Shown: piece after piece, positions 18,088 to 62,504 of the stretch
Layout of the letters: each line of letters starts with the position of its first letter
Numbering within the stretch: the stretch's first letter is position 1
From: Pseudomonadota bacterium
GTDB taxonomy: Bacteria > Pseudomonadota > Gammaproteobacteria > Burkholderiales > Burkholderiaceae_C
DNA: 64,000 nt
Direction of reading: 5' to 3'
Assembly (NCBI GenBank): GCA_018241895.1
Contig: JAFECX010000077.1
Coordinates: 1 to 64,000, forward strand
Made by a program: the position numbers and the translations under genes
Notes under the pieces: generated by a model
What the model was told of the DNA's origin: nothing
Seen by the model: the letters and a program-made list of their open reading frames with translations, nothing else
Databases searched by the model: none

Positions 18088-18460
18088 GGGACCGACCTGG
18101 CTTCGACGTGGGTGCGGAGTCGGCGCGGGGCATGCCGAGCACCAGTTCGCTCGTAAATCCACTGGAACGAAGTAACTGCGAACGACGAACGTTTCGCCCT
18201 CGCCGCTTAAACACCGGTGAGCCTCGCAACGGTTGGCCGATGGGCCGGGCCGAGGTCGCAAGACCGAAGGCTGCGAGGTCATGCACATCGGCTCGTCCCT
18301 GGTCGCGTCATTCGGCCAGGGCCTAAAACCAAGTGACTCGGGGCATCGGCAGCGTGCTGCTGCGCGGCCGGCGCCCTCAGACTCAAATCAGACAGCTACG
18401 CATGTAGAACCGTCCGACGATGGCTTGCGGACGGGGGTTCGATTCCCCCCGGTTCCACCA
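18088..18460 (+). ncRNA. ssrA: Transfer-messenger RNA (tmRNA)
   Basis: A 373-nt one-piece tmRNA. The 5' end GGGACCG pairs with CGGTTCC just before the terminal ACCA, giving a seven-pair acceptor stem with one G-U. The T-arm is CGGGGGTTCGATTCCCCCC. The tag frame starts at GCG 18178 and reads ANDERFALAA followed by TAA at 18208-18210, the betaproteobacterial degradation tag. tmRNA rescues stalled ribosomes and marks the product for ClpXP/ClpAP. Its 3' end is a common integration target, and an island starts directly behind it here. Confidence 0.97.
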
Positions 18461-18703: not shown

Positions 18704-19155
18704 TCAGGCATCGAACCGTGCCACGACCTCCCGCTGCGCTGCCCAGTCCACCGGTAGCGGATTGCGCTGAAACCACAGTAGGCTCATGCAGCGGGGTTGT
18801 TGTCCGGCGTAGATGGCCTGCACGACGGCGGGCTCCAGCAAGGTCAGGCGCAGGAGTTCGTTGACGGTCGAGTGATGCAGACCCTCGCGCTTGGCGATCT
18901 CGCTGCCGGTGTCCACCACGTCGTCGTCGAGCAGTTGCTGCCAGTAGAACGCCCGTGACAGTGCCGTGAGCAAGGGCTGGTCGTGGACGGCGGTGGTCTT
19001 GGCCTGTACCTCGGCCACCGCAGGTCGCACCACGACGGCCCGTCCACCACGTTTCCTGATCTTGATCGGGATGAAAGTCGTGAGGCGGATTTGGTCGCCT
19101 TCGCGCCGCTCGCGCTTTTCGGCCCGGCCCGTGGCCTCGATCTTCGGTTTGTTCT

Positions 19156-19159
<4 letters not shown>
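18704..19159 (-). CDS. Small HTH protein encoded with the recombinase
   Basis: A 151-residue basic protein. Residues about 85-115 form a helix-turn-helix (GSEIAKREGLHHSTVNELLRLTLL), and the N-terminus is Lys/Arg-rich. It starts at GTG 19159, overlapping the recombinase stop as GTGA, so it is translated from the same mRNA. Such genes regularly follow serine recombinases of this type. A role as directionality or regulatory factor is an inference from position; I cannot assign it to a named family. Confidence 0.72.
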
Positions 19160-20486
<1,327 letters not shown>

Positions 20487-20490
<4 letters not shown>

Positions 20491-20969
20491 CGCGCACCTG
20501 CCTTCTCGCGGCGCAGGCCAAAGAACCTCGGCCCATTCCACTGCACGCCCGTGATGTGCCGCGCCACCGCCGACAGGCTGCGGAACGTCCGGCCTTCGTA
20601 TTCGCACTGACCGTCCGGCCTAACGACCACGCGATGCTCGCGCTCATCCCATTCACGCATCAGCACCGTGCCGGGCATCAGGGTCTGCTGGCGGCTATCG
20701 CCCGTGCCCGGCTCCAGCCGATGCTTGATTTTCGAGTGAGCGGCTCCGGCCTCGACCAGATGGCGGCGGATGCCCGCAGGCACGCCGCCGTAGGCCAGCT
20801 CCTGAATCCGGTACGCCAGCCGGGATTCGAGGAAACTGCGATTGATGTGCTTGGGCCGCCGAGGGAAGTGCTGATCCCACAGCGCCCACAGGTCGGCCAT
20901 CGGCAATGCGGGCAAGGCCGCGATCTGCGCCGACACGGTGCCGACGCCCGTGTTGGGTTTGCTGCTCAT
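20487..20969 (-). CDS. DUF2924 family protein
   Basis: A 160-residue protein matching DUF2924: the N-terminal LPALPMADLWALWDQHF block, then NRSFLESRLAYRIQELAYGG and a C-terminal TVLMREWDEREHRVVVRPDGQCEYEGRTFRSLSAVARHITG segment. Families like this are found almost only beside phage or island serine recombinases, and the C-terminal half resembles a small DNA-associated wHTH-like fold. A strong CAGGAGAA site precedes its ATG. It overlaps the recombinase start, so it is the first gene of the recombination triplet. Confidence 0.85.
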
Positions 20970-21616: not shown

Positions 21617-22462
21617 TCATGCGCTGGGTCTTTCCGCAGCCAGCTTGGCGCGGGCGGATTCGAGGTACTCGTGCGGAATATCGATCTCGAGCTTGCGCTC
21701 GCTGTGCGTGCTGAACCCGGCATTGCGCGATGCCACTGCAGCACGGGCCAGCACGTCGTAGACCTGCGGCAACTGTTCGTGGAGTTCGATCTTTGCGACG
21801 CTGGATTGGTGGTGCTTGAAGGCACGTTCTGCGTCATTGATCTGGCCGGGGATGGCAGCGATCTCGGCATCCACCGCCTGCAGCTTGCCGTTGATGTTCT
21901 CCAGCGTGGCGCGCGCCACCCGCAGCTCGACATCGAGTTTGGTCAACGCCTCGGGCAAGACGAATTCGCCCTCGGCAGCGGCCATCGCTTCACTGGCCGA
22001 TTGCGTCTCGGTGGCGATGCGCTGCTCCAGTTCGTCAATGCGCTTGTCCAGCTTGGCGATGAGCTTGGCGTGCTGCTCGCGCTCGGTCTGCAGCGCACTG
22101 CGGCGACGGCGCAATTCGATGATCGTTGCGCGTGCGCTCTCCAGCTTGTCGGGGGCTTCGACGATGGAACGCAGGTCATGGAACTTGGCCTTCAAGTCTC
22201 GGACGTCGCGCTCCAGCGCATCGGCCCGTTGCTTGGCCTCACCAGCTTCACGCCGCGCCCGGCGTTCGGCCTCGCTGACCGAGTGATGGCTGCCGCGCTG
22301 CTCCAGATCAAAGGCGTACTTCTCTTTGGCCACGCTGTCGGCCCTCGCCTCGGCGGCAGCGGTCTGCAAGGTATCGAGCTGCTGCTTGACGTCGGCGTGC
22401 TCGGCCTTGATGCGTGCGTAGTAGCCGCTGGTGGTTTTCTTGCTGAAGGGGTTGAGTTTCAT
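21617..22462 (-). CDS. Coiled-coil protein of unknown function
   Basis: A 281-residue protein beginning MKLNPFSKKTTSGYYARIKAEHADV. From about residue 15 to 235 it is an almost unbroken heptad-rich coiled coil with many Glu, Lys, Arg and Ala, and it has no membrane segment or catalytic motif. It may be a scaffold in the recombinase operon or a partner of the following small proteins; this is inferred from position only. It is followed by a 178-base gap and then the 135-residue gene on the same strand. Confidence 0.7.
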   Translation of the reverse strand: MKLNPFSKKTTSGYYARIKAEHADVKQQLDTLQTAAAEARADSVAKEKYAFDLEQRGSHHSVSEAERRARREAGEAKQRADALERDVRDLKAKFHDLRSIVEAPDKLESARATIIELRRRRSALQTEREQHAKLIAKLDKRIDELEQRIATETQSASEAMAAAEGEFVLPEALTKLDVELRVARATLENINGKLQAVDAEIAAIPGQINDAERAFKHHQSSVAKIELHEQLPQVYDVLARAAVASRNAGFSTHSERKLEIDIPHEYLESARAKLAAERPSA

Positions 22463-22484
22463 GGTCGGGGTCTCCGTTGGCGTG

Positions 22485-22787
22485 TCAGGGATGGAAGGGG
22501 TAACGGGCATCACCCGGGCTGACGGTGGTGCTGATCCACAGGCCGGGGCCGACCTGCTTTTTGATGCCCACCAGCGCGCCAGGGCGGTGCGGGCGGTTCG
22601 TGGCCTGCCAGCCGTGCTGGGCAACGGGCGTGTTGGCCGACGCGCCGGTCATCACCGCAACGGCCTGCGCCAAATCGGTCCCGGCCCACGGCGAGGTGGC
22701 GTCGAGTGATGGGGCAGCGGCAGGCGCTTGAAGGCCCAGCGCCTTACGCCAGACCGGATGCAGATGGGGCAGATTGAAATGGCTCAC
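22485..22787 (-). CDS. Small island protein of unknown function
   Basis: A 100-residue protein starting at GTG 22787, with AAGGAG at a good distance. It reads SHFNLPHLHPVWRKALGL at the start and has a central ATSPWAGTDLAQAVAVMTG and a C-terminal GALVGIKKQVGPGLWISTTV segment. It is the first gene of the minus-strand run that leads to the recombinase. No known family is recognised. Confidence 0.6.
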   Translation of the reverse strand: MSHFNLPHLHPVWRKALGLQAPAAAPSLDATSPWAGTDLAQAVAVMTGASANTPVAQHGWQATNRPHRPGALVGIKKQVGPGLWISTTVSPGDARYPFHP

Positions 22788-23175: not shown

Positions 23176-23394
23176 ATGACCACCATCCAACATCCGAGCC
23201 TGCTCACGCCACGCCAGTTGGCCGCCCGCTGGGGCATGAGCGAGAAGACTCTCGAACGCTGGCGCACGCTCGGCACGGGTCCGACGTACCTCAAGCTCGG
23301 CAGCCGCGTGATGTATCCGCTTGCCTCCATTGCGCAGCACGAGCAGGGCCGGATGCGCCGCTGCACGGCAGGCCAAGAACTGCCTCAGTACTGA
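23176..23394 (+). CDS. Small AlpA/excisionase-type HTH DNA-binding protein
   Basis: A 72-residue protein starting at ATG 23176, with AAAGGAAA upstream. It is a compact winged-helix of the HTH_17/MerR-like excisionase type: LTPRQLAARWGMSEKTLERWRTLGTGPTYLKLGSRVMYPLASI. Proteins like this act as excisionases or as activators at island promoters. It is eight bases upstream of the primase-helicase gene and likely co-transcribed, so it may couple excision with replication. Confidence 0.85.
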   Translation: MTTIQHPSLLTPRQLAARWGMSEKTLERWRTLGTGPTYLKLGSRVMYPLASIAQHEQGRMRRCTAGQELPQY

Positions 23395-23402
23395 CCCTGC
23401 GG

Positions 23403-25535
23403 ATGTCCTCGATGCAGACGACTTTGACCATCGGCACAGCAGCAGCCCCATTCCCGTGGTTCGATTTCAACGATGCGGTTGCCGCCCTGCCGCGCCTGGA
23501 GAAGGAAGACATCCGCGCCCGGCTGCTCGACCAATTGGAATCAGCGCTGGCGTACCTGCTGCCGCGCGGCAAGCGACGCGGCGCGCAATTTGTCGTCGGC
23601 AATCTGCAGGGCGATGCGGGCGACAGCCTTGTCGTTGATCTCGATGGCGCAAAGCGGGGCCTGTGGCTGGACTTCGCCACCGGCGAATCCGGTGATGCGC
23701 TCGCGCTGTGGGCCGCCGTGTGCGGCTTCATCCTTCCGCACCAGTTCGATGCACTGCTGGAGGACATCGGCCACTGGCTGATCGTGCCGCGCCTCGCCGT
23801 GCCGATCACGGTGTCGTCGAGCGCCCCGCGCGATGATCTTGGCCCAGCCACCGCCAAGTGGAACTACCACGATGCCAACGGCAAGCTGCTGGCCTGCGTG
23901 TACCGTTACGACCCGCCCGGTGGCAAGCAGTACCGACCCTGGGATGTGGCATCCCGCTCGATGTGCATGCCCGAGCCGCGCCCACTCTACAACCTGCCTG
24001 CCATCGCCGCCAGCAACGATGTTGTGCTGGTCGAGGGCGAGAAATGTGCCGACGCCTTGATGCACCTCGGCATCACGACCACTACCGCGATGGGTGGCGC
24101 ATCCACCGCCGTCGACAAGACCGACTGGACACCGCTGACCGGCAAGACAGTCGTCGTGTGGCCTGACCACGACGAGACTGGAGCACGTTACGCGGATGTC
24201 GTGATCGTGAAGCTGCAGCAGATCGGTGCGACGGTGCGGCGCGTGACCATACCCGAGGAAAAGCCCAAGAAGTGGGATGCCGCCGATGCCGTGGCCCAGG
24301 GCTTCGACGTGGTGTCGCTTCTCGCGACATCATCCCCGGTGACCGATGCCGTCCAGCCCATGGACATCACCCGCTGGCGTGCAGTAGATCGCTTCATTGG
24401 TGAGCCGCAGGCTCGGCGCTGGCTGGTCGAGGGTGTGTTCCCGCAAGCACAGGCTTCCCTGATCGCCGCTGCAGGCGGTGTCGGCAAATCCTTCCTGCTC
24501 TTGGCGCTGGCCCGCGAGGTCGCGGCCTTCGACGGCACCTGGGCCAACGCCCCGAAGGTGTTTGGAGGGGCGCTGACCGGACAAGGTGTGGCGATCTATA
24601 TCACCGCCGAGGACGATGCTATCGAAGTGCACAACCGCCTGAACGCCCTGGGCCCGATTCCCGACCGACTCTACGTGTTGCCGTTGCCCGATGCCGGTGG
24701 CGCGCAACCGCTGTTTGCACCCGATCCGGCCACGCGCGGCCCGGCCACCACGGCAGCGTGGCACGAACTGGAGCGGCAACTGAGGGCGATGACCGGGCTG
24801 CGACTGGTGGTGCTCGATCCCCTGCAGCCGCTGTGCGCGCTCGATCTGAACGTGCCGGAGAACGCCCAGTTGGTCTGCTCGCGCTTGGCGGCGCTGGCCG
24901 CCCGCACAGGCGCATCGGTGATCGTGTCGCACCACTTCGCCAAACGTGAAGCGACCACGCCAGAGCAGGCGCGTGAAGCAATTCGCGGTACGGGCGGACT
25001 GGTGGACGGCGTGCGGTCGGTGTACGCGCTGTGGCAGCCCAAGGAAGAGCAGGCTCGCACGATCTGCAAGAGTTTGGGCGAACCCTTCGAGCGCGGGCGC
25101 GTGGTGCTGGGCGGCGTGGTCAAGGCCAATGGGCAGGCCGACCTGCACGTCACCACCTTCCTGCGCGATGCACGCGGGCTGCTGGTGGATCGCAGCCAGG
25201 ACGTTCGGCGCACGGCGCAGCCGGACATTGAACTGCTCCCTGAATTGAAAGCCGCCATCGCCCGCGCGGCTGCCGCTGGCCAGCCCTACACCAAGACCGG
25301 CGGCAACGGCATCTACGAGCGCAGACACGAGTTGCCTGAAGCCTTCCAGACCGTGGGCAAGCACCGATTGGCCGAGTGGGTATCGATGCTGCTCGACCGC
25401 GAGGAGCTGGTGATGGCGATGGCAGAGGGCTCCAAGCTGGTGAAATGGCTCGACGTGCCCGATGGGCCGGTCGCCAACGGCGCGGCGCAGTTCGTGACCG
25501 GGCACCTGGGCCGCTCGTCCGCTGGCCGACGATGA
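23403..25535 (+). CDS. Primase-helicase (Toprim plus RepA-like AAA ATPase)
   Basis: A 710-residue protein. The middle of the N-terminal half has a Toprim core: DVVLVEGEKCADAL with its glutamate at about 202-215, and VVVWPDHDETG with its DxD at about 246-256. The second half is a RecA/RepA-type AAA_25 ATPase with Walker A AAGGVGKS (Lys362), a LRLVVLDPLQPLC Walker B at about 468-480 and a VIVSHHFAK sensor. This combination is typical of replication proteins of plasmids, satellites and ICEs. The start may be ATG 23403 or ATG 23412. Directly downstream lies a repeat-dense non-coding region, which suits an origin. Confidence 0.88.
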   Translation: MSSMQTTLTIGTAAAPFPWFDFNDAVAALPRLEKEDIRARLLDQLESALAYLLPRGKRRGAQFVVGNLQGDAGDSLVVDLDGAKRGLWLDFATGESGDALALWAAVCGFILPHQFDALLEDIGHWLIVPRLAVPITVSSSAPRDDLGPATAKWNYHDANGKLLACVYRYDPPGGKQYRPWDVASRSMCMPEPRPLYNLPAIAASNDVVLVEGEKCADALMHLGITTTTAMGGASTAVDKTDWTPLTGKTVVVWPDHDETGARYADVVIVKLQQIGATVRRVTIPEEKPKKWDAADAVAQGFDVVSLLATSSPVTDAVQPMDITRWRAVDRFIGEPQARRWLVEGVFPQAQASLIAAAGGVGKSFLLLALAREVAAFDGTWANAPKVFGGALTGQGVAIYITAEDDAIEVHNRLNALGPIPDRLYVLPLPDAGGAQPLFAPDPATRGPATTAAWHELERQLRAMTGLRLVVLDPLQPLCALDLNVPENAQLVCSRLAALAARTGASVIVSHHFAKREATTPEQAREAIRGTGGLVDGVRSVYALWQPKEEQARTICKSLGEPFERGRVVLGGVVKANGQADLHVTTFLRDARGLLVDRSQDVRRTAQPDIELLPELKAAIARAAAAGQPYTKTGGNGIYERRHELPEAFQTVGKHRLAEWVSMLLDREELVMAMAEGSKLVKWLDVPDGPVANGAAQFVTGHLGRSSAGRR

Positions 25536-25598
25536 GCATCGAGGGAGGTAAGCATTCCCGATGCTCACCCTCTCTTTAGAGAGGAATGGCCGGGAAGC

Positions 25599-25773
25599 GG
25601 GAACGATTAGAAAGATCGTTGATTTACAAGAGAATTTGCTGCTGAAATCGTTCCCGGTCGGCTCCTGGGAACGATTGAGCCCGGGAACAATTTACCGCCG
25701 CACCAGCGCTGGGTTTAATTGTTCCCACCCCCGCAATCGTTCCCGGTCGGGAACCGGGAAGCCGGGAACGATT
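25599..25773. repeat. Seven inverted and direct GGGAACRATT iterons
   Basis: Plus-strand copies start at 25599, 25667, 25683 and 25764, minus-strand copies at 25646, 25717 and 25735. They form three face-to-face pairs: 25646/25667, 25683/25717 (the A variant GGGAACAATT on both arms) and 25735/25764. The matching variants inside each pair show that the pairs evolved as dyads. Confidence 0.88.
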
Positions 25774-25787
25774 TGCGGCGTCCGCCG

Positions 25788-26034
25788 CAGGCGAAATGGG
25801 CCCTTCCTGGCGATATTCCAATACGGGGGGCGCGAGCGCGGCGCTTCGCTACCGTCCGGGCGCGAACCAAGGTTCGCACGGTTCGCAGGTACGCACCCCG
25901 GAAGGTTCGCCTCGGCTTGGGTGGTAACCGGTAACCTGCGGTGGTAACCCGGTTCGGTAGCCTGTCACTGGCGAGATGCCGGGCCTGCGCCCCCCGTATC
26001 GGTTTTTCTGAAGGAAGGGCCCATTTCACCTGTG
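25788..26034. repeat. Long inverted repeat (two arms of about 50 bp)
   Basis: The left arm at 25788-25837 and the right arm at 25985-26034 are inverted copies at roughly 80% identity. Both contain GAAATGGGCCCTTCC and ATACGGGGGGCGC. The 147 bases between them contain GCGAACC-AA-GGTTCGC (25862-25877), further GGTTCGC copies at 25880 and 25904, and GGTGGTAACC at 25920 and 25940. Confidence 0.85.
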
Positions 26035-26371: not shown

Positions 26372-26737
26372 TCACGCTGCCTCTTGCTCGTCGGTGATTG
26401 CGCAGTGAATCACGAAGCCCGTGAGGTAGACCATCCCGCGCGGGATGCCGTAGTCAAAGCTTGTCCGGCTGCCAATCGTCCAGCCCATCCACTTCTGCGT
26501 GGCGTCGTCGATGGCATCCTTGAGGGATTTGCCGACGTAGAGGCCGTTGTGGACTTCGTCCGCGTAGTGGCGGCCAAACCGGCTGTCGAGGAAGGCGCGG
26601 ATGTTGTCGAAGTCTTCGCCCGTGGCGCTGGCGATGGCGCGCATGGCCAAGAGCCACGCGATGCTGGCGTGGCCGCCCATCGTGCCCCAGAAGCCCCAGC
26701 CTTCGTTGCGGGTGGCGGGGGTGTTGGTGTTGCTCAT
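26372..26737 (-). CDS. Island protein of unknown function
   Basis: A 121-residue protein behind a good GAAGGAG site. The N-terminus is Asn/Thr-rich, followed by GWGFWGTMGGHASIAWLLAMRAI and a conserved-looking region FLDSRFGRHYADEVHNGL. One moderately hydrophobic helix near residue 105 (GMVYLTGFVIHCAI) might touch a membrane. It is the last gene of the three-gene minus-strand run with DUF3489 and the DUF6900-like gene. No function is assigned. Confidence 0.68.
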   Translation of the reverse strand: MSNTNTPATRNEGWGFWGTMGGHASIAWLLAMRAIASATGEDFDNIRAFLDSRFGRHYADEVHNGLYVGKSLKDAIDDATQKWMGWTIGSRTSFDYGIPRGMVYLTGFVIHCAITDEQEAA

Positions 26738-26830: not shown

Positions 26831-27400
26831 TCAAGCAACGCGGTACACGCGCTCGCCACCCTGGGCCTTGTCGGAAGTGATGATCAGGCCGAGCTTTTTC
26901 TTGAAGGCTCCGGCGAAGGTGCCGCGCACCGTGTGCTGCTGCCAGCCGGTGACGTCGCAAATCTGCCGCACGGTCGCGCCCTCAGGGCGCTGGAGCATCC
27001 GCACGACTTCGGCCTGCTTGCTGTTCTCGCGGGTGCGGGGCTTGGCCCACGTTGCTTCGGCGGCAATGACGGCGGCCTCCAGCTCGGTGTCATTCGGCAC
27101 GGGCGGTGCGCCTTCGGCGTTGGCGATGATCTGATCGAGCTTGGCCTCGAACGCGGAGGTCGATTGCGCTACTTCGGGGCGTTTCATGCCCAGAGCGTCG
27201 TAGCCCTCGGCGGCGACGCGCCAGCCCTCGCCATCGGGCGTGATCAGGGCGCGGTTGAACATCCCGGCGAGCACCTTCTTGCGCGCGCCGCCTTTGATGT
27301 TGTCGGGGAGCCATTCGATCTTGCCCGCGCCGGTGTTGATGGCCTTGGCAAGGATGGCGTGCTGGGCCGGGGTGAGTTGGGTGATGGGGGTGGTGGTCAT
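26831..27400 (-). CDS. DUF3489 family protein
   Basis: A 189-residue protein. The N-terminal 70 residues (TQLTPAQHAILAKAINTGAGKIEWLPDNIKGGARKKVL) and a C-terminal winged-helix-like DUF3489 domain (KQAEVVRMLQRPEGATVRQICDVTGWQQHTVRGTFAGAFKKKLGL) match the family. The C-terminal domain looks like a DNA-binding HTH. The family is common in alpha- and betaproteobacterial phages and islands; its role is unknown, a regulator being the simplest reading. A CAAGGAGC site precedes its ATG. Confidence 0.86.
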   Translation of the reverse strand: MTTTPITQLTPAQHAILAKAINTGAGKIEWLPDNIKGGARKKVLAGMFNRALITPDGEGWRVAAEGYDALGMKRPEVAQSTSAFEAKLDQIIANAEGAPPVPNDTELEAAVIAAEATWAKPRTRENSKQAEVVRMLQRPEGATVRQICDVTGWQQHTVRGTFAGAFKKKLGLIITSDKAQGGERVYRVA

Positions 27401-28175: not shown

Positions 28176-28188
28176 GGGAGGGATGGCG

Positions 28189-30582
28189 ATGCGAGACGGC
28201 GTGATCACCGAAGCAGACACCTGCCGCGAATTCGTCACGCCACGACTGGTCGAGGCAGGCTGGGGCAATGCGCCCTGCGCCATCGGCGAGCAGCGCAGCT
28301 TCACCAACGGCCGCATCATCGTCGCGGGCGGCAAGGTGCGGCGCGGCCAGCAAAAGCGCGCCGACTACCTGCTGTACTACCGCCGCGACTACCCGCTGGC
28401 CGTGGTCGAAGCCAAGGAGGTGGGGCTGCCCGCCGAAACCGGCGTGCAACAAGCGCGCGAATACGCCGAAATCCTCGGCCTCAAATTCGCCTACGCCACC
28501 AACGGCCACCGCATCATCGAGATCGACTACACCACCGGCACCGAGCGCGAGGTGGAACGCTATGCCACGCCGGAAGAACTGTTCGCCCGCCTGACCGCTG
28601 GGGCGCACCTGCCACAAGCCTCCACACCGCACCTGCTCGAACCCTTCAACCTGGTCTCAGGCAAGGTGCCACGCTACTACCAGCGCATCGCCATCCAGCG
28701 CGTGATCGAGGCTGTTCTGCTGGGCCAGGCGCGCATCCTCGCCACGCTGGCCACCGGCACGGGCAAGACCAATGTGGCCTTCCAGGTTTGCTGGAAATTG
28801 TGGAACAGCCGCTGGAACCGCACCGGTGAACACCGCCGCCCCAAAATCCTGTTCCTTGCCGACCGCAACATCCTGGTCGATGACCCGATGGCCAAGATGT
28901 TCGCGCCCTTTGGCGACGCCCGGCACAAGATCAGCGGCGGCGACACCAGCCAGAGCCGGGACATGTACTTCGGCATCTATCAGGCGCTGACCACGGCCAG
29001 CGCCGACGTGTTCCGCCAGTACCGCCCGGATTTTTTCGATCTCATCATCATCGACGAATGCCATCGTGGCTCCAGCCGCGACGAAAGCGCCTGGCGCGTG
29101 GTGCTCGACTATTTCGCGCCCGCCGTGCAGTTCGGCATGACGGCCACGCCGCTGCGCGAGGAATCGCGCGACAGCTACGACTACTTCGGCAACCCCGTCT
29201 ATACCTACAGCCTGCGCCAAGGCATCGAGGATGGCTTTCTCGCGCCGTATCGCGTGCACCGCGTCATCACCACGGTGGATGCCGCTGGCTGGCGGCCCAG
29301 CAAGGACGAACTCGACCGCTTTGGCCGCGAGGTGCCCGACGACGAATACCAGACCAAGGACTTCGAGCGCGTCGTCGCGCTGCGCGCCCGCACCAGGGCG
29401 ATGGCCCGCCACCTGACCGACCTGCTCAAAGGCACCGACCGCTTCGCCAAGACACTGGTGTTCTGCGTCGATCAGGAGCACGCCGCCGAAATGCGGCAGG
29501 AGCTGATCAACCTCAACAGCGATCTGGTCAAACAGTACCCGAACTACGTTTGCCGCGTCACCGCCGACGGGGGCGACATTGGCCTGGCGCATCTGGCGGA
29601 TTTTCAGGACGTGGACAAGACCACGCCCGTCATTCTCACCACCTCGCAGTTGCTGACCACCGGCGTCGATGCCGAAATGGTCAAGAACGTGGTGCTGGCC
29701 CGCGTGGTCGGCTCGCGCTCCGAGTTCAAGCAGATCATCGGGCGCGGCACCCGGCTCAAGGTCGACTACGGCAAGGAATACTTCAACATCATCGACTTCA
29801 CCGGCACCGCCACCCAGCACTTCGCCGACCCCGACTTCGACGGCGACCCGGCACGCATCGAGGTGGTGAGAGTCGATGAAGAAGGCGAAGTGGTAGAGAT
29901 CAACACCGAGGAAACGCCGAACACGACAGAGGGTCACGAATCCGAAGACGAATCAGGTGATGGCACCGGCAATGGCGAGATCCTTGGCGATCCACCGCCG
30001 CCCGAGCCGCGCAAGTTCTACATTGACGGCGGCGAAGTGGAAGTCATCGGCCATCTGGTCTATGATCTCGACACCGACGGCAAGAAGCTGCAGGTCGTCA
30101 AGTACACCGACTACTCGGGCCGCGCCCTGCGCACTCTCTACCCCACGCGCGAGGCGCTGCAATCCAGGTGGGCCAACCCGGACACCCGCGCCGAGGTGCT
30201 GCGCGAGCTGACCGAGCGCGGCATCAGCTTCGAGGAACTGGCCTCCAGCAGCGAACAGCCCGATGCCGACCCCTTCGACCTGCTGTGCCACCTGGCCTGG
30301 AACGCGCCGCTCCTCACGCGCCGCCAGCGTGCCGAAGTCGCCAAGCGCCAAACCCAAGACTTGTTCGCGCAGTACGGCGACACGGCGCGGGAAATCCTCA
30401 CGCTGCTGCTCGACCGCTACATCGAGCGCGGCATCATTCAATTCAACGCGCTGTCCGAGCTGATGAAGGTACAACCCTTCGACCGCTACGGCTCTCCTGC
30501 CGAGATCGCCACCCGCCACTTCGGCGGCGTGCCCGCGATGCGCGAGGCCGTCACGCGGCTACAAACCGCGATCTATCAATAA
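28189..30582 (+). CDS. hsdR: Type I restriction endonuclease, R subunit (EcoEI-like)
   Basis: A 797-residue protein with ATG 28189 (GGAGGG at good spacing; ATG 28183 is too close to it). The nuclease core RADYLLYYRRDYPLAVVEAKE gives Asp59, Glu74 and Lys76 of a PD-ExK site. The translocase has Walker A ATGTGKT (Lys193), DECH at 289 and GMTATP, with motif VI in QIIGRGTRL. The EcoEI-type C-terminal domain follows an acidic linker (about 565-600). With HsdM and HsdS it cleaves unmodified DNA after ATP-driven translocation. It lies first in the order R-M-(nuclease)-S. Confidence 0.94.
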   Translation: MRDGVITEADTCREFVTPRLVEAGWGNAPCAIGEQRSFTNGRIIVAGGKVRRGQQKRADYLLYYRRDYPLAVVEAKEVGLPAETGVQQAREYAEILGLKFAYATNGHRIIEIDYTTGTEREVERYATPEELFARLTAGAHLPQASTPHLLEPFNLVSGKVPRYYQRIAIQRVIEAVLLGQARILATLATGTGKTNVAFQVCWKLWNSRWNRTGEHRRPKILFLADRNILVDDPMAKMFAPFGDARHKISGGDTSQSRDMYFGIYQALTTASADVFRQYRPDFFDLIIIDECHRGSSRDESAWRVVLDYFAPAVQFGMTATPLREESRDSYDYFGNPVYTYSLRQGIEDGFLAPYRVHRVITTVDAAGWRPSKDELDRFGREVPDDEYQTKDFERVVALRARTRAMARHLTDLLKGTDRFAKTLVFCVDQEHAAEMRQELINLNSDLVKQYPNYVCRVTADGGDIGLAHLADFQDVDKTTPVILTTSQLLTTGVDAEMVKNVVLARVVGSRSEFKQIIGRGTRLKVDYGKEYFNIIDFTGTATQHFADPDFDGDPARIEVVRVDEEGEVVEINTEETPNTTEGHESEDESGDGTGNGEILGDPPPPEPRKFYIDGGEVEVIGHLVYDLDTDGKKLQVVKYTDYSGRALRTLYPTREALQSRWANPDTRAEVLRELTERGISFEELASSSEQPDADPFDLLCHLAWNAPLLTRRQRAEVAKRQTQDLFAQYGDTAREILTLLLDRYIERGIIQFNALSELMKVQPFDRYGSPAEIATRHFGGVPAMREAVTRLQTAIYQ

Positions 30583-30609
30583 CAGCGCCCACAAGAAGAA
30601 CCCGAACCG

Positions 30610-32178
30610 ATGGCCAAAGCCAAAAGCAAAACCCCACTCACCACCCGCGACAACCGCTCCGCACTGATCGGCAGCGCGCGCAAGATTCTGCGCAAGGACA
30701 AGGGCCTCAACGGCGACGTGGATCGCCTGCCGCTGCTCACCTGGGTGATGTTCCTCAAATTCCTCGACGACCTGGAGCTCAAGCACGCGCAGGAAGCCGA
30801 ACTCGACGGCAAGCGCTACCAGCCCATCATCGAGCAGCCCTACCGCTGGCGCGACTGGGCCGCGCGCGAAGACGGCATCACCGGTGACGAGCTGCTGGCC
30901 TTCATTGGCCAGGAGCACACCCACCGCGCCGACGGCAGCCTGGGGCAAGGTCTGTTTGCCTACCTGCGCGGCCTGGCGGGCGAAGGCGAAAAAGGCAGCC
31001 AGCGCGAAGTCATCGCCAACGTGTTCAAGGGCGTGCAAAACCGCATGGTCAGCGGCTACCTGCTGCGCGACATCGTCAACAAGGTGGGTGGTATCCACTT
31101 CAACGCCAGCGAGGAAATCCACACCCTCTCGCACCTCTACGAATCCATGCTGCGCGAAATGCGCGACGCGGCGGGCGATTCCGGCGAGTTCTACACCCCA
31201 CGCCCGGTGGTGCGCTTCATGGTGCAGGTGACCAATCCGCACCTGGGCGACACCGTGCTCGACCCCGCCTGCGGCACCGGCGGTTTTCTGGTGGAAGCCT
31301 TCGACCACCTCCACGCCCAGGTCACCACCACCGAGCAGCGCCGCAGCCTGCAACGCGACACGCTCGCCGGGCAAGAAGCCAAGCCGCTGCCCTACATGCT
31401 GGCGCAGATGAACCTGCTGCTGCACGGGCTGGAAGCGCCGCAGATCGCCTACGGCAACACGCTGGAGCGGCGCATCAGCGAAATCGGCCACGCCGAGCGC
31501 GTGGACGTCATCCTCACCAACCCGCCCTTCGGCGGCGAGGAAGAGGCGGGCATCAAGGCCAACTTCCCGCCCAATATGCAGACGGCGGAAACCGCGCTGC
31601 TGTTCCTGCAATACATCATGCGCAAGCTGCGCGTGGCCGGTGCGCCGGTGAAAGGCAAGAAGACGGTGGAGCGCGGTGGCCGCGCGGCGGTGGTGGTGCC
31701 CAACGGCACCCTGTTCGGCGACGGCGTGGCCGCTGCCATCAAGGCCGAGCTGCTCAAGGAGTTCAACCTGCACACGATCGTGCGCCTGCCGCAAGGCGTG
31801 TTCGCACCCTACACGGACATCCCGGCCAACCTGCTGTTCTTCGAACGCGGGGGGCCGACGCAAAGCATCTGGTATTACGAGCTGCCGCTACCCGAAGGCC
31901 GCAAAAAGTACAGCAAGACCGCGCCCTTGCAGTTCGACGAGTTCGCGCCGGTGTTGGCGTGGTGGAGCCAGCGCGAGGAAGGCCCGCAGGCGTGGCAAGT
32001 CAGCGCCGCTGAAATTGCCGCCAGCAACTACAACCTCGACCGCAAGAACCCCAATGCCAAGGCCGGTCTGGAGCACGCCGACCCGAAGGATTTGATCGCC
32101 TCCATGCGCGGGCACGAGGCGGAGGTGATGCGGCTGCTGGGCGAGATTGAAGCCTTGGTAAATGAGGTGCAGGGATGA
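30610..32178 (+). CDS. hsdM: Type I modification methyltransferase, M subunit
   Basis: A 522-residue N6-adenine methyltransferase. An N-terminal helical HsdM_N domain (about 10-140) is followed by the SAM motif LDPACGTGGFLVEAF (from Asp218) and the catalytic NPPF motif at 304-307 (DVILTNPPFGGEE). The C-terminus ends in a coiled coil for contact with HsdS. It methylates the sequence chosen by HsdS. It starts 27 bases after hsdR, and its stop overlaps the next start as ATGA. Confidence 0.95.
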   Translation: MAKAKSKTPLTTRDNRSALIGSARKILRKDKGLNGDVDRLPLLTWVMFLKFLDDLELKHAQEAELDGKRYQPIIEQPYRWRDWAAREDGITGDELLAFIGQEHTHRADGSLGQGLFAYLRGLAGEGEKGSQREVIANVFKGVQNRMVSGYLLRDIVNKVGGIHFNASEEIHTLSHLYESMLREMRDAAGDSGEFYTPRPVVRFMVQVTNPHLGDTVLDPACGTGGFLVEAFDHLHAQVTTTEQRRSLQRDTLAGQEAKPLPYMLAQMNLLLHGLEAPQIAYGNTLERRISEIGHAERVDVILTNPPFGGEEEAGIKANFPPNMQTAETALLFLQYIMRKLRVAGAPVKGKKTVERGGRAAVVVPNGTLFGDGVAAAIKAELLKEFNLHTIVRLPQGVFAPYTDIPANLLFFERGGPTQSIWYYELPLPEGRKKYSKTAPLQFDEFAPVLAWWSQREEGPQAWQVSAAEIAASNYNLDRKNPNAKAGLEHADPKDLIASMRGHEAEVMRLLGEIEALVNEVQG

Positions 32179-33379
32179 CCAACCGGGCAAGTGCCAAGGC
32201 CGTCAAAACCACGAAGGACACGAAGGGCACCAAGGTGGCGGAAGTGGGCTACGACGACGTTCACGGCAGCATCGTTGCTCTGCTGGAATCGGCCCGCCGC
32301 GCCGCCGCGCCGCCGCGCGCAGCGTCAATGCGCTGATGACGGCCAGCTACTGGGAGATCGGTCGGCGCATTGTGGAGTTCGAGCAGGGCGGGCAGGAGCG
32401 GGCAGCCCGTGGCCAGCAGTTGCTGCAACGCTTGTCCGCCGATTTGGCGACACGCTTTGGGCGCGGCTTCAGCGTGGACAACCTGGAGCAGATGCGCCTG
32501 TTTTATCTGGCCTACACGCCCCAGTGGATTTCCGAGACGCTGTCTCGGAATAATTCCGCCGTCCACATAGCCGGAAAATCCGAGACAGCGTCTCGGAATA
32601 TCGGCCTGGAACAACTGGCGCTGGTTCTGCCGCTATCGTGGTCACACTATGTGCATCTGGTACGTCGCACCCGATCGGTTGAAGAGCGCGAGTTCTATGA
32701 AACCGAAGCCCTGCGTGGCGGCTGGACCGTGCGCCAACTTGCCCGCCAGATCGGCACGCAGTTCTACACCCGCACCCTGCTGTCGAAGAACAAGCGCGCC
32801 ATGCTGGAAAAGGGCAGCCAGCCTCGGCCCGGCGACCTCATCACGCCCGACGAAGCTGTCAAAGACCCCTACGTCCTGGAGTTCCGCAACCTCAAGGATG
32901 AATACTCAGAATCGGAACTGGAAGACGCACTGATTCACCGGCTGGAAGACTTCCTGCTGGAGCTGGGCGGAGACTTTACTTTTGTGGGCCGCCAGCGCCG
33001 CCTGCGCTTGGACGAAAGCTGGTTTCGTGTCGATCTGCTGTTCTTCCACCGCCGCCTGCGCTGCCTCGTCCTCATCGACCTCAAGCTCAACGAACTGTCA
33101 CATGCCGACGTGGGGCAGATGCACATGTACTGCAACTATGCCCGTGCGCACTGGACGCTGGAGGGCGAAAACCCACCCGTCGGCCTGATCCTGTGCACTC
33201 GCGCCAAATCCGCGCTGGCCCGCTATGCGCTGGAGGGGTTGCCCAACAAGGTGATGGCCGCCGAGTACAAAACGGCGCTTCCAGATGTCCAACTGCTGCA
33301 AGACGAATTGGAAAAAACGCGGCGAGAGTTTGAAGCGCGACGACTTGTGCGCGGCAGCGATGCGGAGAGTGAGATATGA
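32175..33379 (+). pseudogene. yhcG: YhcG-type PDDEXK nuclease (DUF1016), frameshifted
   Basis: A DUF1016/YhcG nuclease: the N-terminal block MTASYWEIGRRIVEFEQGGQERA, the middle LSWSHYVHLVRRTRSVEEREFYETEALRGGW, and the C-terminal PDDEXK core ESWFRVDLLFFHRRLRCLVLIDLKLNELSHADVGQM. Translation from ATG 32175, coupled to hsdM by ATGA, reads into the right protein but stops at 32334. The break is an exact tandem duplication of GCCGCCGC (32301-32308 and 32309-32316). With one copy the frame runs through to 33379 and gives SARRAAARSVNAL, the expected family N-terminus. A shorter product could start at ATG 32336. It overlaps hsdS by ATGA. Confidence 0.86.
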
Positions 33380-34545
33380 AGGCGTGGCCCGAAGTCGCCT
33401 TGGGTGAATTGCTCCAGCGCTCAGATGCAGCAGCTGTGATTAATCCGGCTGCCGAGTACCACGAAGTCACCATCAAGCTGTGGGGTAAAGGGGTCATCAG
33501 CAGAGGCAAGGTTTCTGGCAGTGATGTCGTTGCTGTTCGTCGCGTTGTGCGGGCCAATCAGCTGATCTTGTCCAAAATTGACGCTCGCAACGGTGCAATC
33601 GGCTTGGTTCCGCCAGAACTGGACGGAGCCATCGTCAGCAACGATTTCCCGTCCTTTGATTTCCGCGACCTGCGCCGGTGTGACCCGGCATTCATGGGTT
33701 GGCTTGTCCGTTCAATGCCGTTCGTAGCACTTTGCAAAGCCGCGAGCGAGGGAACGACCAATCGGGTTCGCATCAAGGAAGATCGGTTTCTTGCCAAGCA
33801 GATTGCGCTCCCGCCCCTCGCCGAACAACAAACCCTCGTCGCCCGCCTCGACGCGCTGGCCGAGAAAACCCGGCAGCTCGAAGCGCATCTGGAGGCCGCC
33901 GAGCGCGATGCCGAACACCTGCTGGCCCTGCGCTTCCGCGATGCCATTGCCAATGCACCGATGCGGCCGATGGCGGAAGTTGCGCCGCTGGTGCGGCGTG
34001 AGGTGCAGATCACCTTGGGCGGAAGCTATCCCGAGTTGGGCATCCGCTCCTTCGGCAAAGGTACGTTCCACAAGCCGCCCTTGTCCGGTGCGGAAGTCGG
34101 CACAAAACGCCTGTATCGCATCGAACCTGGCGACCTGCTGTTTTCCAACGTGTTCGCGTGGGAGGGTGCCATTGCCATTGCACAGCCCGAGGACACCGGG
34201 CGCTTCGGTTCGCACCGCTTCATGACTTGCCAAGCAAACCCTACGCAAACTTCGGCAGAATTTTTGCGCTACTACTTCCTGACCGACGACGGCCTGCTGA
34301 AAATCGGCGAAGCCTCACCCGGCGGCGCGGGCCGCAACCGCACGCTGGGGCAAGAAAAGCTGATGGCCATCGAAGTCCCCATCCCACCCTTGCTCATCCG
34401 GCAATCCTTCAACCGCCTGCAAACCGAAGTCGCCGCGCTCAAGGCCAAACACGCCGCCATCCGCACCGCCAACGCCGCCCTGCTGCCCGCAACGCTGGAG
34501 CGGGTGTTTGCCCAGGAATCCAAAGGAGACGACCGTGGCCGATGA
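33376..34545 (+). CDS. hsdS: Type I restriction specificity subunit
   Basis: A 389-residue HsdS with two target-recognition domains (about 5-145 and 200-345), each followed by a conserved coiled-coil spacer: LPPLAEQQTLVARLDALAEKTRQLEAHLEAAERDAEHL and PIPPLLIRQSFNRLQTEVAALKAKHAAIR. It sets the bipartite DNA target for both methylation and cleavage. It overlaps yhcG at the start (ATGA) and the following gene by 11 bases. The recognition sequence cannot be read from the protein. Confidence 0.93.
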   Translation: MKAWPEVALGELLQRSDAAAVINPAAEYHEVTIKLWGKGVISRGKVSGSDVVAVRRVVRANQLILSKIDARNGAIGLVPPELDGAIVSNDFPSFDFRDLRRCDPAFMGWLVRSMPFVALCKAASEGTTNRVRIKEDRFLAKQIALPPLAEQQTLVARLDALAEKTRQLEAHLEAAERDAEHLLALRFRDAIANAPMRPMAEVAPLVRREVQITLGGSYPELGIRSFGKGTFHKPPLSGAEVGTKRLYRIEPGDLLFSNVFAWEGAIAIAQPEDTGRFGSHRFMTCQANPTQTSAEFLRYYFLTDDGLLKIGEASPGGAGRNRTLGQEKLMAIEVPIPPLLIRQSFNRLQTEVAALKAKHAAIRTANAALLPATLERVFAQESKGDDRGR

Positions 34546-34978
34546 TGCACTCGCCCAAGCCGATGCCGATGTGCTGCTGCGCATGGAGAAAGTACCTGCG
34601 TCTACGGCCGCGTTCGACTTTCCCGGCCTTGGCGGGCGCATCGAGGTGCCGCTGGTATCGCGCGATAAACGCGAGCAGTTTTCGCTGGACATCAACCGCA
34701 AGCGCATCGCCTTGACCACGGGTTATCAGGCGCGTGGCCGGAGGGTGGTTGTGCTGGCACGCCTCGATTTCGCCGCACCCCACCGCAACCCGGATGGCAC
34801 CGAAGTCGGCGTGCCGCATTTGCACCTGTATCGTGAGGGCTACGGCGACAAGTGGGCCGTTGAGGTTCCGGCGGACATCTTGCACAATCCGGATGATGTG
34901 TGGCAGGTGCTGCACGATTTCATGCGCTACTGCGGCGTGGTCGAGCAGCCGAACATCACACGGGGGCTGTTCGCATGA
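34535..34978 (+). CDS. DUF6978-like protein
   Basis: A 147-residue protein. GTG 34535 has AAGGAG at ideal distance and lies inside the end of hsdS. The core reads FDFPGLGGRIEVPLVSRDKREQFSLDINRKRIALTTGYQARGRRVVVLARLDF, then GVPHLHLYREGYGDKWAVEVP; this matches the DUF6978 pattern as I remember it. Such proteins occur next to DUF1828 proteins in defence islands. Function is unknown. It overlaps the DUF1828 gene by ATGA. Confidence 0.72.
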   Translation: MADDALAQADADVLLRMEKVPASTAAFDFPGLGGRIEVPLVSRDKREQFSLDINRKRIALTTGYQARGRRVVVLARLDFAAPHRNPDGTEVGVPHLHLYREGYGDKWAVEVPADILHNPDDVWQVLHDFMRYCGVVEQPNITRGLFA

Positions 34979-35736
34979 GCACGACCAATGATCTGATCAG
35001 CCGCTATTACGACTGGCTCAAGGCCAAGACCAACTGGCGCGAGATCAACGACTGGGTGGAAATCACCACGCCGTATCTGGATCGTCACAACGACTGCATC
35101 CAGATATACCTGAAGCGGCAGGACGGCGAATGGGTGCTGACCGATGACGGCTACACTCTGGCCGATCTGGCGCAGTCTGGGTGCGAGGTCGACACGCCGC
35201 GCCGCAAGGCACTGCTGGCGACAACGCTCAACGGCTTTGGTGTGCAGCAGAATTTTGAGGCGCTGGAAGTCAAGGCCACCGAGGAGAACTTCCCGCTGCG
35301 CAAGCACAGCCTGTTGCAGGCCATTCTCGCGGTCAACGATCTTTTCTACGTTGCACGCGCCAACGTCGAGAGCTTCTTCTTCGAGGACGTGGCCTTGTGG
35401 CTGGACGATGCCGACGTGCGCTACACCTCGCGCGTGAACTTCGTTGGGCGCAGCCACTACAACCACCAGTTCGATTTCGTGGTGCCGAAATCCAAGCGTG
35501 CGCCAGAGCGGATTCTTCGCGTCATCAACAATGCGAACAAAGACACCGCCCAGAGCACCGCCTTCGCGTGGCTGGACACCAAGGAGGTACGGCCTTCGGA
35601 TTCGCAGGCATTCGCCATCCTGAACGACCGCGACCGACAGCTTGGCGATGCCGTGCAGGATGCTCTGCGCAGCTACGACATCACGCCGATTGCGTGGAGC
35701 AAGCGGGAAGAATTCAGGGAACGGCTGGCGGCATGA
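34975..35736 (+). CDS. DUF1828/DUF1829 protein
   Basis: A 253-residue protein with the DUF1828 N-terminal domain (TPYLDRHNDCIQIYLKRQDGEWVLTDDGYTLADL) and the DUF1829 C-terminal domain (FDFVVPKSKRAPERILRVINNANKDTAQSTAFAWLDTKEVRPSDSQAFAILND). The C-terminal half has the spacing of a degenerate restriction-endonuclease-like fold, but no clear catalytic triad is visible. It is coupled to the DUF6978-like gene and follows hsdS in one transcript, so the two may form an accessory pair of the restriction operon or a separate defence module. Confidence 0.8.
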   Translation: MSTTNDLISRYYDWLKAKTNWREINDWVEITTPYLDRHNDCIQIYLKRQDGEWVLTDDGYTLADLAQSGCEVDTPRRKALLATTLNGFGVQQNFEALEVKATEENFPLRKHSLLQAILAVNDLFYVARANVESFFFEDVALWLDDADVRYTSRVNFVGRSHYNHQFDFVVPKSKRAPERILRVINNANKDTAQSTAFAWLDTKEVRPSDSQAFAILNDRDRQLGDAVQDALRSYDITPIAWSKREEFRERLAA

Positions 35737-35775
35737 GGGCAGGCCGATCAAAAATGCGCGAAACCGTCTCCAACA

Positions 35776-38151
35776 ATGATCGATACGGATGAGTTGACGG
35801 CGCTGCGCGCCGAGAACGCCCGCCTGATCGCGCTGCTGGAAGCGCAAGGCATCGAGTGGCGGTTGCCGCAGCCGATCACCTGGGTGGCCCGGGAGCAAGA
35901 GTCCTCCCGGCTATCCACCGCCGAGAAGGTCGCCCTTTTCCGCCGCCTGTTTCGGGGCCGAACCGATGTCTATCCGATTCGCTGGGAAAACAAAACCACG
36001 GGCAAGGCCGGTTACGCCCCGGCCTGTGCCAACGAGTGGCGCGCCGGTGTCTGCGAGAAGCCGCGCATCAAGTGTGGCGAATGCAGTCAGCGGCTGCTGA
36101 TCCCGCTGTCCGACGCCGTGGTCTATGACCATCTGGCCGGTGGGCACACGGTTGGGGTGTACCCGCTGCTGGAGGACGACACGTGCTACTTCCTCGCGGC
36201 TGACTTCGATGAAACCGATTGGCGGGACGATGCCCGCGCATTCATGCAGTCCTGTGACGAACTCGGCGTGCCCGCCGCGTTGGAGATTTCGCGCTCCGGT
36301 CAGGGCGCGCATGCCTGGGTGTTTTTCGCCAGTCGGGTGTCGGCCCGTGATGCCCGCCGCCTGGGCACGGCCATCATCAGTCACACCTGCGCGCGCACGC
36401 GGCAACTGAAGCTGGAGTCCTACGACAGGCTTTTCCCAAACCAAGACACGATGCCCAAAGGCGGCTTCGGCAACCTGATTGCCTTGCCGCTGCAGAAGGG
36501 ACCGCGCGAGAGAGGTTGCAGCGTGTTCGTCGACGCCGATCTGCGCCCCTATCCGGATCAATGGGCATTCCTGGCTTCCATCCAGCCGATGGCCGCGCAC
36601 GACATCGAGCCGACCATCCTGCGGGCCACAGGTGGTGTCCACCCGCTGGACGTTACCTTCATCGATGACGAAGACCTGGCCACGCCGTGGAAGCGAGAAA
36701 GCACGGCGTTGAAGATGTTGACGGGTCCCATGCCCCGGTCACTGACGGTGATCCTGGCCAACCTGATCTATTTCGAGAAGGCCCAACTGCCGCAGGCGCT
36801 GGCCAACCGCCTGATTCGGCTGGCAGCTTTCCAGAACCCCGAGTTCTACAAGGCTCAGGCGATGCGGATGTCGGTGTGGGACAAGCCGCGCATCATCGGC
36901 TGCGCTGAAAACTTTCCGCAGCACATCGCGCTGCCGCGCGGGTGTTTCGACGCCGCGCGCGAACTGTTGGCGGATAACGACATTCGTCTCGACTTGCGCG
37001 ACGAGCGCCACGCCGGAGTACCCATCGCCGTCGGCTTCAGCGGCACGCTGCGTCCCGACCAGGAAGCCGCCGTGGCGGCGATGCTGAGGCACGATGACGG
37101 TGTGCTGTGCGCGCCAACCGCCTTCGGCAAAACGGTGACGGCCGCAGCGCTCATCGCCCGGCGCGGTGTCAACACGTTGGTTCTGATGCATCGCACGGAA
37201 TTGCTCAAGCAGTGGCAGACGCGCCTTGCCGCATTTCTGGATGCAGGTAAGGAGGTGATCGGCATCATCGGTGGCGGCAAGACCAAGCCCACCGGCAAAG
37301 TTGATATTGCCGTGATGCAGTCGCTTTCTCGACAAGGCGAAGTCGATGTGCTGGTCGAGAACTACGGGCAAGTGATCGTGGATGAATGCCATCACATCGG
37401 TGCGGCGTCCTTCGATGCCATCCTGCGGCGCACAAAGGCAAAGTATGTGCTGGGCCTGACGGCGACACCGATCCGTCGCGATGGGCAACAGCCCATCATC
37501 TTCATGCAGTGCGGGCCGATCCGGCACAAGGCGGCGCAACCACTGGATGCGCCGCGCGATCTGGCGGTGACGCCGCAGTTCATCGAATCACCGATCGCTC
37601 TGCTGCCGGAGGCGGGCATTCAGGATGTGTTCCGGCATCTGGCACAAGACGCGGCCCGAACGGCAGCCATCGCCAGCGCGATCACCGACGCTTTCCAGCA
37701 AGGCCGCAAGGTGCTGGCGTTGACCGAACGCACCGAGCACATCGAGGCGATTCAAACTGCGTTGATGGGTCAAGTTCCAGAGCCGTTTGTGTTGCACGGG
37801 AGAATGGCAAAATAGCAGCGCGCCGCGCTGATCGCCGCGCTCGATGCGCTGCCTCCCGATGCGCCGCGCGTGTTGCTGGCCACCGGCAAGCTGGTCGGCG
37901 AAGGCTTCGACCATCCGCCGCTGGATACCTTGGTGCTGGCGATGCCCGTCTCGTGGAAGGGCACGCTGCAGCAATACGCCGGGCGCCTGCACCGCGAGCA
38001 CGCCAGCAAGAACGACGTGCGCATCATCGACTTCGTGGACACCGGCCATCCGGCCTTGCTGCGGATGTGGGACAAGCGCCAGCGGGGCTATCGGGCGATG
38101 GGGTATCGCGTCGATTCGGGGGTGCCGTTTGTCGGCAGTCTTGAAGAGTGA
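35776..38151 (+). pseudogene. TOTE-type primase-helicase with an in-frame amber stop
   Basis: The open frame spans 791 codons with a single TAG at codon 680 (37813-37815). The N-terminal part is an archaeo-eukaryotic primase domain of the TOTE conflict-system type: LAADFDE (Asp143, Asp145), ISRSGQGAHAWVFF and FGNLIALPLQK, with four cysteines before it (CANEWRAGVCEKPRIKCGECSQ). The second part is a superfamily II helicase with Walker A APTAFGKT (Lys452), DECH at 536 and LGLTATPIRRDG. The codons after TAG carry on in frame with LLATGKLVGEGFDHPPLDTLVLAMP and QQYAGRLHRE, that is motifs V and VI. The stop therefore removes the last helicase motifs unless it is read through. A short starting coiled coil (LRAENARLIALLEAQGIEW) is also present. 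Confidence 0.85.
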
Positions 38152-38195
38152 TGTCGGCTTGGTAGGGAGCCGGAATCGGCGGGTAGACAGTCTAT

Positions 38196-38210
38196 GCCAC
38201 TCAGTGGCAC
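38196..38210. promoter_or_regulatory. Putative operator of the toxin-antitoxin pair
   Basis: A perfect 7-1-7 palindrome TGCCACT-C-AGTGGCA lies 10 bases before the toxin start. It sits just upstream of CACAATAAG, a possible -10 region, where HigA-type antitoxins usually bind to shut down their own operon. Confidence 0.65.
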
Positions 38211-38220
38211 AATAAGCCCG

Positions 38221-38592
38221 ATGACGCGAGTATTCAAAACGCGCCACTTCCAGCGATGGATGCGTAAGACGGAGCTCACCGATGCCGTCCTGTGCAAGGC
38301 CGTTCAGGAGATGGCAGTTGGCCTGATCGACGCTGACCTCGGCGGCAGCGTGGTGAAGAAACGCATTGGTTTGGCGGGACGCGGCAAGCGTGGCGGTGTG
38401 CGGACGCTGGTCGCCACCAACAAGGGCAACCGCTGGTTCTTCGTGTACGGCTTCGAGAAGAACGAGCGGGCGAACATCAGCGACGAGGAACTCGAAGGCT
38501 TGCAGATCATTGCCGCCGACCTGCTGGCTCGAACAGGCCCGCAATTGGATGAAGCCGTTGCCGACGGCGCTTTGCAGGAGATTTGCCAATGA
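38221..38592 (+). CDS. HigB/RelE-type toxin
   Basis: A 123-residue protein of the RelE/ParE superfamily (DUF1044-like): FKTRHFQRWMRKTELTD at the start, then VKKRIGLAGRGKRGGVRTLVATNKGNRWFFVYGFEKNERANISDEELEGLQIIA. This is the conserved core of HigB-like mRNA-cleaving toxins. It comes before its antitoxin, as usual for HigBA, and overlaps it by ATGA. No strong ribosome site is visible. Confidence 0.87.
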   Translation: MTRVFKTRHFQRWMRKTELTDAVLCKAVQEMAVGLIDADLGGSVVKKRIGLAGRGKRGGVRTLVATNKGNRWFFVYGFEKNERANISDEELEGLQIIAADLLARTGPQLDEAVADGALQEICQ

Positions 38593-38952: not shown

Positions 38953-39219
38953 GTGGCGGAGACGGAGTTGAACCCGTCAACCATCCGCCACCACTTGCCA
39001 AAATCCCAACCCTTCTCGGTTGGGATTTTTTTGCCCGAAACTCCAGTGCTGGCGCGGGTTCGGGCTGCGCTGCGAAGGACGCCACCGACCCGGGAAGCCC
39101 GGTTTCGGGCGCTTTTCCGGTCTCTGGCGGCCGACAATTATCTCGAGCGCTCGTGTTGCCTCACGGATCCAGGTCGTTGACAAAGACGGAATTGAACCCG
39201 TCAACCGTCCGCCACCACT
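38953..39219. repeat. Pair of 35-bp direct repeats, candidate attachment site
   Basis: Copy A at 38961-38995 and copy B at 39185-39219 match at 33 of 35 positions, 224 bases apart. Both begin GACGGRTTGAACC-type sequence and end CCGCCACCACT. In copy A the core is flanked by GTGGCGGA (38953) and TCCGCCAC (38984), and inside lies GACGG-AGTTGAAC-CCGTC, so it can fold as two stacked stems. On the minus strand it looks like a T-arm (GGGTTCAA) followed by an acceptor arm. Confidence 0.8.
39002..39032 (+). terminator. Rho-independent terminator at the right end of the island
   Basis: A perfect 10-bp stem AATCCCAACC/GGTTGGGATT with a 6-base loop and five more T residues. It ends rightward transcription from the toxin-antitoxin operon before the core genome. 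Confidence 0.9.
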
Positions 39220-39428: not shown

Positions 39429-39701
39429 TCAGGCTGCCTGTGCGGCGATTCCAAGGCAGTTGTTGCAGCGGCCGAGACCGCGCAGGCGCGGATCGGGCTT
39501 GCCTTCGCCGGTCTTGAAGTTCGCGTGGCAGCGGATGCACACGTACATCTTCGAGCTCGACATCATCGGCCGCACGCCGGGCTCGGCGTTCGGCCGCGCG
39601 GCGGTGTATTCGGCCTGCGTCTGGCGTAGCTTGGGACCGCCAGCGCTCGGTGCGGCGGGGGTGAGTGAAGGGGAAGGGGCGGTACGGCGGGTGCTGGTCA
39701 T
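39429..39701 (-). CDS. Small protein with two CxxC pairs
   Basis: A 90-residue protein from ATG 39701. The first 45 residues are Thr/Pro/Ala-rich and unstructured; the rest reads MYVCIRCHANFKTGEGKPDPRLRGLGRCNNCLG. Two CxxC pairs about 24 residues apart suggest one zinc-binding ribbon. The first is formally a CxxCH haem motif, but no signal peptide is present, so a cytochrome is unlikely. It has its own terminator. No family is assigned. Confidence 0.6.
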   Translation of the reverse strand: MTSTRRTAPSPSLTPAAPSAGGPKLRQTQAEYTAARPNAEPGVRPMMSSSKMYVCIRCHANFKTGEGKPDPRLRGLGRCNNCLGIAAQAA

Positions 39702-62453: not shown

Positions 62454-62504
62454 CTTGCTTCCTTCACGTCACGGAGGACCCTGCCACCACCGCCGTGGCT
62501 CGAG

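Follow-up and report, generated by a model that had tools for sequence, protein, structure and literature searches.

A GGGAAC iteron array as the putative replication origin of a satellite-like island at a tmRNA gene

Among the described phage satellites, PICIs have a replication origin 3' of pri-rep and can carry two cos sites, and their attachment sites are reported never to be used by prophages (PMC6092414). The PLE satellites of Vibrio cholerae, 18-19 kb in size, combine a large serine recombinase with their own initiator and its iterons (PMC7145576). The Dehalococcoides ssrA islands have their integration module at the tmRNA gene, and our comparison with them extends to the outline of that system (PMC3146451). 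AcaML1 is an inducible temperate Acidithiobacillus phage of 59,363 bp in ssrA (PMC3826726).

We analysed a stretch of bacterial DNA of 64,000 nucleotides (hereafter the window) that contains an island at a tmRNA gene. Like PICI EcCICFT073, this island has an AlpA-type regulator and a primase/rep gene with a putative origin and iterons directly 3' of it, carries cargo and has no detected structural genes; cos packaging, for which EcCICFT073 has two cos sites, is predicted for the island (PMC6092414). The island differs from EcCICFT073 in its serine recombinase, in its size of about 20.5 kb and in the head-to-head arrangement of its two cos-like sites, whose cosB-like repeats differ. Unlike those of PICIs, its attachment site is also common to an AcaML1-like prophage. 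With the PLEs it shares the large serine recombinase, a similar size and, as proposed below, an own initiator with iterons and a satellite lifestyle, but the PLE initiator belongs to RepA_N and no common genes were noted (PMC7145576). Our searches of the open-access literature returned no description of this island group.

Island at a tmRNA gene with anti-phage cargo

The features of the island and of its candidate origin region are as follows (window coordinates).

18088-18460, plus strand: tmRNA gene, attachment site
18461-38993, unstranded: island of about 20.5 kb, bounded on the left by the 3' end of tmRNA and on the right by a predicted end
18704-19159, minus strand: recombinase small-subunit homolog (phrog_14161), also supported by the annotation of the equivalent AcaML1 gene
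19156-20607, minus strand: large serine recombinase (integrase)
21617-22624, minus strand: coiled-coil protein conserved in the island family
23179-23394, plus strand: AlpA-like HTH_17 excisionase/regulator (phrog_66)
23403-25535, plus strand: primase-helicase of 710 aa, Toprim + AAA_25 (RSF1010 RepA-like), phrog_239; proposed to act, via its C-terminal half, as the cognate initiator
25529-25582, unstranded: palindrome CTCTCTTTAGAGAG and hairpin AGCATTCCCGATGCT, conserved, part of the origin module
25599-25773, unstranded: iteron array, seven exact GGGAACRATT copies and further GGGAAC/GGGAAG half-sites; proposed replication origin
25600-25655, unstranded: AT-rich stretch between iterons one and two, candidate site of strand melting
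25798-25900, plus strand: cos-like site 1, with cosQ-like GGGCCCTTCC, cosN-like ATACGGGGGGC and cosB-like GGTTCGCA repeats
25935-26022, minus strand: cos-like site 2, inverted, with cosQ/cosN-like 25989-26022 and GGTTACC-type cosB-like repeats
26372-26737, minus strand: 121-aa protein (phrog_8020) with 58% identity to a protein of AcaML1
26831-27400, minus strand: DUF3489 protein, present in AcaML1-like prophages too
28183-34545, plus strand: cargo, type I restriction-modification (hsdR, hsdM, YhcG/PDC-S02, hsdS)
34900-38592, plus strand: cargo, DUF1828/1829 (PDC-M24B), AEP-TOTE primase-helicase, short ORF and RelE-type toxin

The cargo is anti-phage. Its YhcG/PDC-S02 nuclease gene occupies the interval between hsdM and hsdS (32162-33379), and the AEP-TOTE primase-helicase gene spans 35776-37815. 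Searches with Pfam, NCBIfam and PHROGs identified no phage structural or terminase genes among the main island ORFs. We place the right end at about 38993 because an AcaML1-type element end comes after the CCACCA at 38988-38993. Across the same-genus genomes examined, the right flank lies inconsistently beside the tmRNA gene and so gave no empty chromosomal site, and an approximate-match search for the right att returned chance-level matches only. The three islands measured are of about 20.5 kb (window), 20.3 kb (L057 contig) and 21.5 kb (G123).

Iteron array and primase-helicase gene

A sequence-only reading of the window had reported seven GGGAACRATT copies within 175 bases and interpreted them as a replication origin or initiator-binding array. 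All seven are exact, starting at 25599 (+), 25646 (-), 25667 (+), 25683 (+, A variant), 25717 (-, A variant), 25735 (-) and 25764 (+). They make up seven of the nine exact copies found in the whole 3.98-Mb assembly, and none of 3000 first-order resamplings of the surrounding sequence gave more than one copy. The same array contains an eighth GGGAAC that is not followed by RATT, as well as several GGGAAG/CTTCCC half-sites. It is situated directly 3' of the gene for a Toprim and RepA-type primase-helicase, and clustered short repeats beside an initiator-type gene are the arrangement of iteron-type origins. No plasmid or phage match was obtained when the region was searched with BLASTN. The 40-bp windows that start at 25600 and 25620 contain 58-65% A+T; not every relative is AT-rich at this stretch.

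Relatives of the primase were found on 19 genome contigs and 3 viral contigs. In 15 of them, from several orders and with primase identities of 73-88%, at least four GTTCCY sites lie just 3' of the primase gene. Comparison of these 15 loci reveals a conserved GGGAAC core, layout, adjacent CTCTCTAAAGAGAG palindrome and hairpin, whereas the spacing and copy number of the repeats vary. Elements resembling the palindrome and hairpin also occur in L212 and L213. L050 and L052, which are truncated primase homologs, lack an array, and the likewise truncated L053-L055 keep no more than one site. The origin module is inverted in the window, L037 and L057 relative to the other relatives.

The finer symmetry that had been read into the array fares less well. 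Three inverted pairs are one possible grouping of the seven copies, with one copy left over. The pairs do not appear to be kept as units: the bases 3' of GGGAAC are unmatched within pairs in the relatives, being GATT throughout in L037 and a mixture of GC, GG and GA in L038, and the A/A pair is specific to the window.

Across homologs, array type goes with the C-terminal half of the primase, about residues 590-710. Full-length or C-terminal homologs with identities as low as 40% are accompanied by GTTCC[C/T] arrays, including those of Rhizobium phage RHph_Y3_1 (40%), Agarilytica plasmid pSU2 (55%) and a Methylococcaceae contig (40%). Conversely, homologs of the N-terminal half only, AcaML1 included, have other repeats, namely CGTCAGAC, AGTTGGCA (the type in L107) or CAGATTGCA. 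The rule has exceptions, since a clear GTTCC array is absent in three C-terminal-matching homologs (L211, L221 of Wolbachia phage WO, and L222 of an Azospirillum plasmid). Because the array type tracks this half of the protein, we predict that the C-terminal half of the primase binds the GGGAAC array. The AlpA-like protein and the primase had both been put forward as possible binders; for the same reason the primase-helicase itself is the likely initiator, and the AlpA-like protein is a weaker candidate. An origin to which an initiator binds is the best-supported interpretation of the repeats. The joint swap of primase C-terminal halves and repeats provides a natural set for the study of initiator specificity.

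The primase-helicase consists of an N-terminal Toprim, a RepA-like helicase and a C-terminal domain, and RSF1010 RepA (1g8y) matches its residues 339-583. An AlphaFold model of the full primase was poor (pLDDT 52) and was set aside. The primase has dN/dS values of 0.10-0.17 in four pairs, and the serine recombinase has values of 0.15-0.24 in the pairs compared.

cos-like sites and AcaML1-like prophages

What had been noticed initially did not include the cos-like sites next to the array, the flips in orientation or the resemblance of the island to a satellite. Adjoining the array is an element of the form GGGYCCTTCC...TACGGGGGG, and the layout of the cos-like element is that of the lambda cos region. 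It occurs twice, head to head, in the window, L037 and L057, with cosB-like repeats of the GGTTCGCA/GGTTTGCA type and of the GGTTACC type; the orientation of the pair is flipped in the window relative to L037 and L057. In the window, each of the two cosQ-like copies has GGGCCC in place of GGGTCC. The two sites can pair with each other as a hairpin of about 230 nt. A strict cos motif matched two island contigs only; loosened once, it matched 116 stretches of viral contigs. At nine loci tested, the loosened motif was followed directly by terminase genes in three and by a ParB-methyltransferase in six. Searches with the cos-like queries against phages gave no match. The automatic patterns missed the sites of AcaML1 and of the Extensimonas prophage, both of which were recognised by reading the sequence. 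A separate scan for cosN plus GGGTTACC returned eight stretches; the GGGTCCTTCC element was found in L063 only, and the others were therefore taken as chance. We infer that the islands are packaged at these cos-like sites.

AcaML1 has in common with the island the two-subunit serine recombinase, the N-terminal half of the primase and the 121-aa protein, and it has a cos-like site upstream of its methyltransferase genes. Unlike the island, it carries terminase and structural genes, and its primase C-terminal half and repeats differ. AcaML1-like prophages are about 59 kb long and include both cosB-like types. In Extensimonas vulgaris, one such prophage lies between the tmRNA gene and the start of a related island, so that prophage and island stand in tandem at one tmRNA. 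The cosB-like repeats of this prophage share 27 identical bases with cos-like site 1 (window 25862-25888), while the same-genus prophage G010 has GGTTACC-type cosB-like repeats. The lambda-type terminase phrog_15 was not found in the genome that contains the window, which therefore has no resident helper of the lambda-type-terminase kind. The islands are about one third the size of the AcaML1 genome (20.3-21.5 kb versus 59.4 kb), a proportion reported as typical of satellites (PMC10803314). Taken together, these similarities suggest that the island depends on an AcaML1-like phage as its helper and probably travels between bacteria inside the particles of this larger phage.

Readings of the array and proposed satellite cycle

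From the sequence comparisons above, we consider it probable that the array serves as origin of replication for a phage satellite, an island packaged via cos sites with the aid of an AcaML1-like helper. The array could instead be the origin of a decayed AcaML1-like prophage, leaving the island as an immobile remnant that has lost its structural genes. The recombinase, primase N-terminal half, 121-aa protein, DUF3489 protein and cos-like sites are indeed common to AcaML1-like phages, and the altered cosQ in the window and the lack of a phrog_15 terminase in the genome would fit decay. Yet many genomes of different orders have this same reduced layout with different cargo, at similar sizes in the three islands measured, and dN/dS is 0.10-0.24 across recombinase and primase pairs; the primase C-terminal half and the repeats are also unlike those of AcaML1. 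We therefore regard a prophage remnant as unlikely.

That the array serves as a transcriptional operator for AlpA or the primase rather than as an origin seems very unlikely to us. Dyad-symmetric repeats are able to bind regulators and an AlpA-like gene does lie upstream, but the array is 3' of the gene and occurs in either orientation, its type tracks the primase C-terminal half, and a plasmid and a phage have similar arrays at the same place. An RNA structure such as a terminator or attenuator of the primase transcript would account for the single-strand fold (z = -6.6 with DNA parameters), although inverted repeats alone give such a z-score. Given a core sequence that is conserved while spacing and copy number vary, and a module that is found on either strand, this explanation is highly improbable.

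Under the satellite interpretation, replication would start once the serine recombinase has excised the island from the tmRNA gene: the primase-helicase would bind the GGGAAC iterons beside its own gene through its C-terminal half and open the DNA. The terminase of an AcaML1-like helper would cut the island copies at the neighbouring cos sites, leading to packaging.

The island has several features of a PICI: an integrase, an AlpA-type regulator, a primase/rep gene with the candidate origin directly 3' of it, main ORFs free of phage structural and terminase genes and, judged from sequence, a cos signal that matches a candidate helper phage. However, PICI attachment sites are reported to be free of temperate prophages, and in Extensimonas an AcaML1-like prophage occupies the same tmRNA; we therefore describe the island as a satellite working like a PICI and do not file it as one. 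Most likely, then, it is a PICI-like satellite with a serine recombinase and a prophage-shared site. If so, this would explain the movement of a group of restriction-modification islands located at tmRNA genes in Burkholderiales and other Proteobacteria, and the cultured strain Extensimonas vulgaris DSM 100911 offers a candidate helper and satellite.

The pairing of the cos-like sites hints that a single satellite could make use of two helper classes. As a tentative extension, the islands may form a lineage of tmRNA-integrated satellites with serine recombinases, some with a head-to-head pair of cos sites that differ in cosB type, each packageable by the terminase of one of two AcaML1-like helper classes, with the cos pair and the origin module each in either orientation.

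Beyond the predicted right end, a 58-bp stretch (window 39001-39057) shares 90% identity with the left end of a second G123 element and also resembles the left end of the Extensimonas prophage; a further element may once have stood there in tandem. A short stretch at 39429-39640 is 84-91% conserved in most same-genus genomes checked. The G122 and G125 contigs each carry two serine recombinase modules, with the second lying about 20-21 kb downstream (L229-L230 and L231-L232, respectively), suggesting tandem elements. Farther along the window, a glycine riboswitch (RF00504) lies at 62503-62633 on the minus strand.
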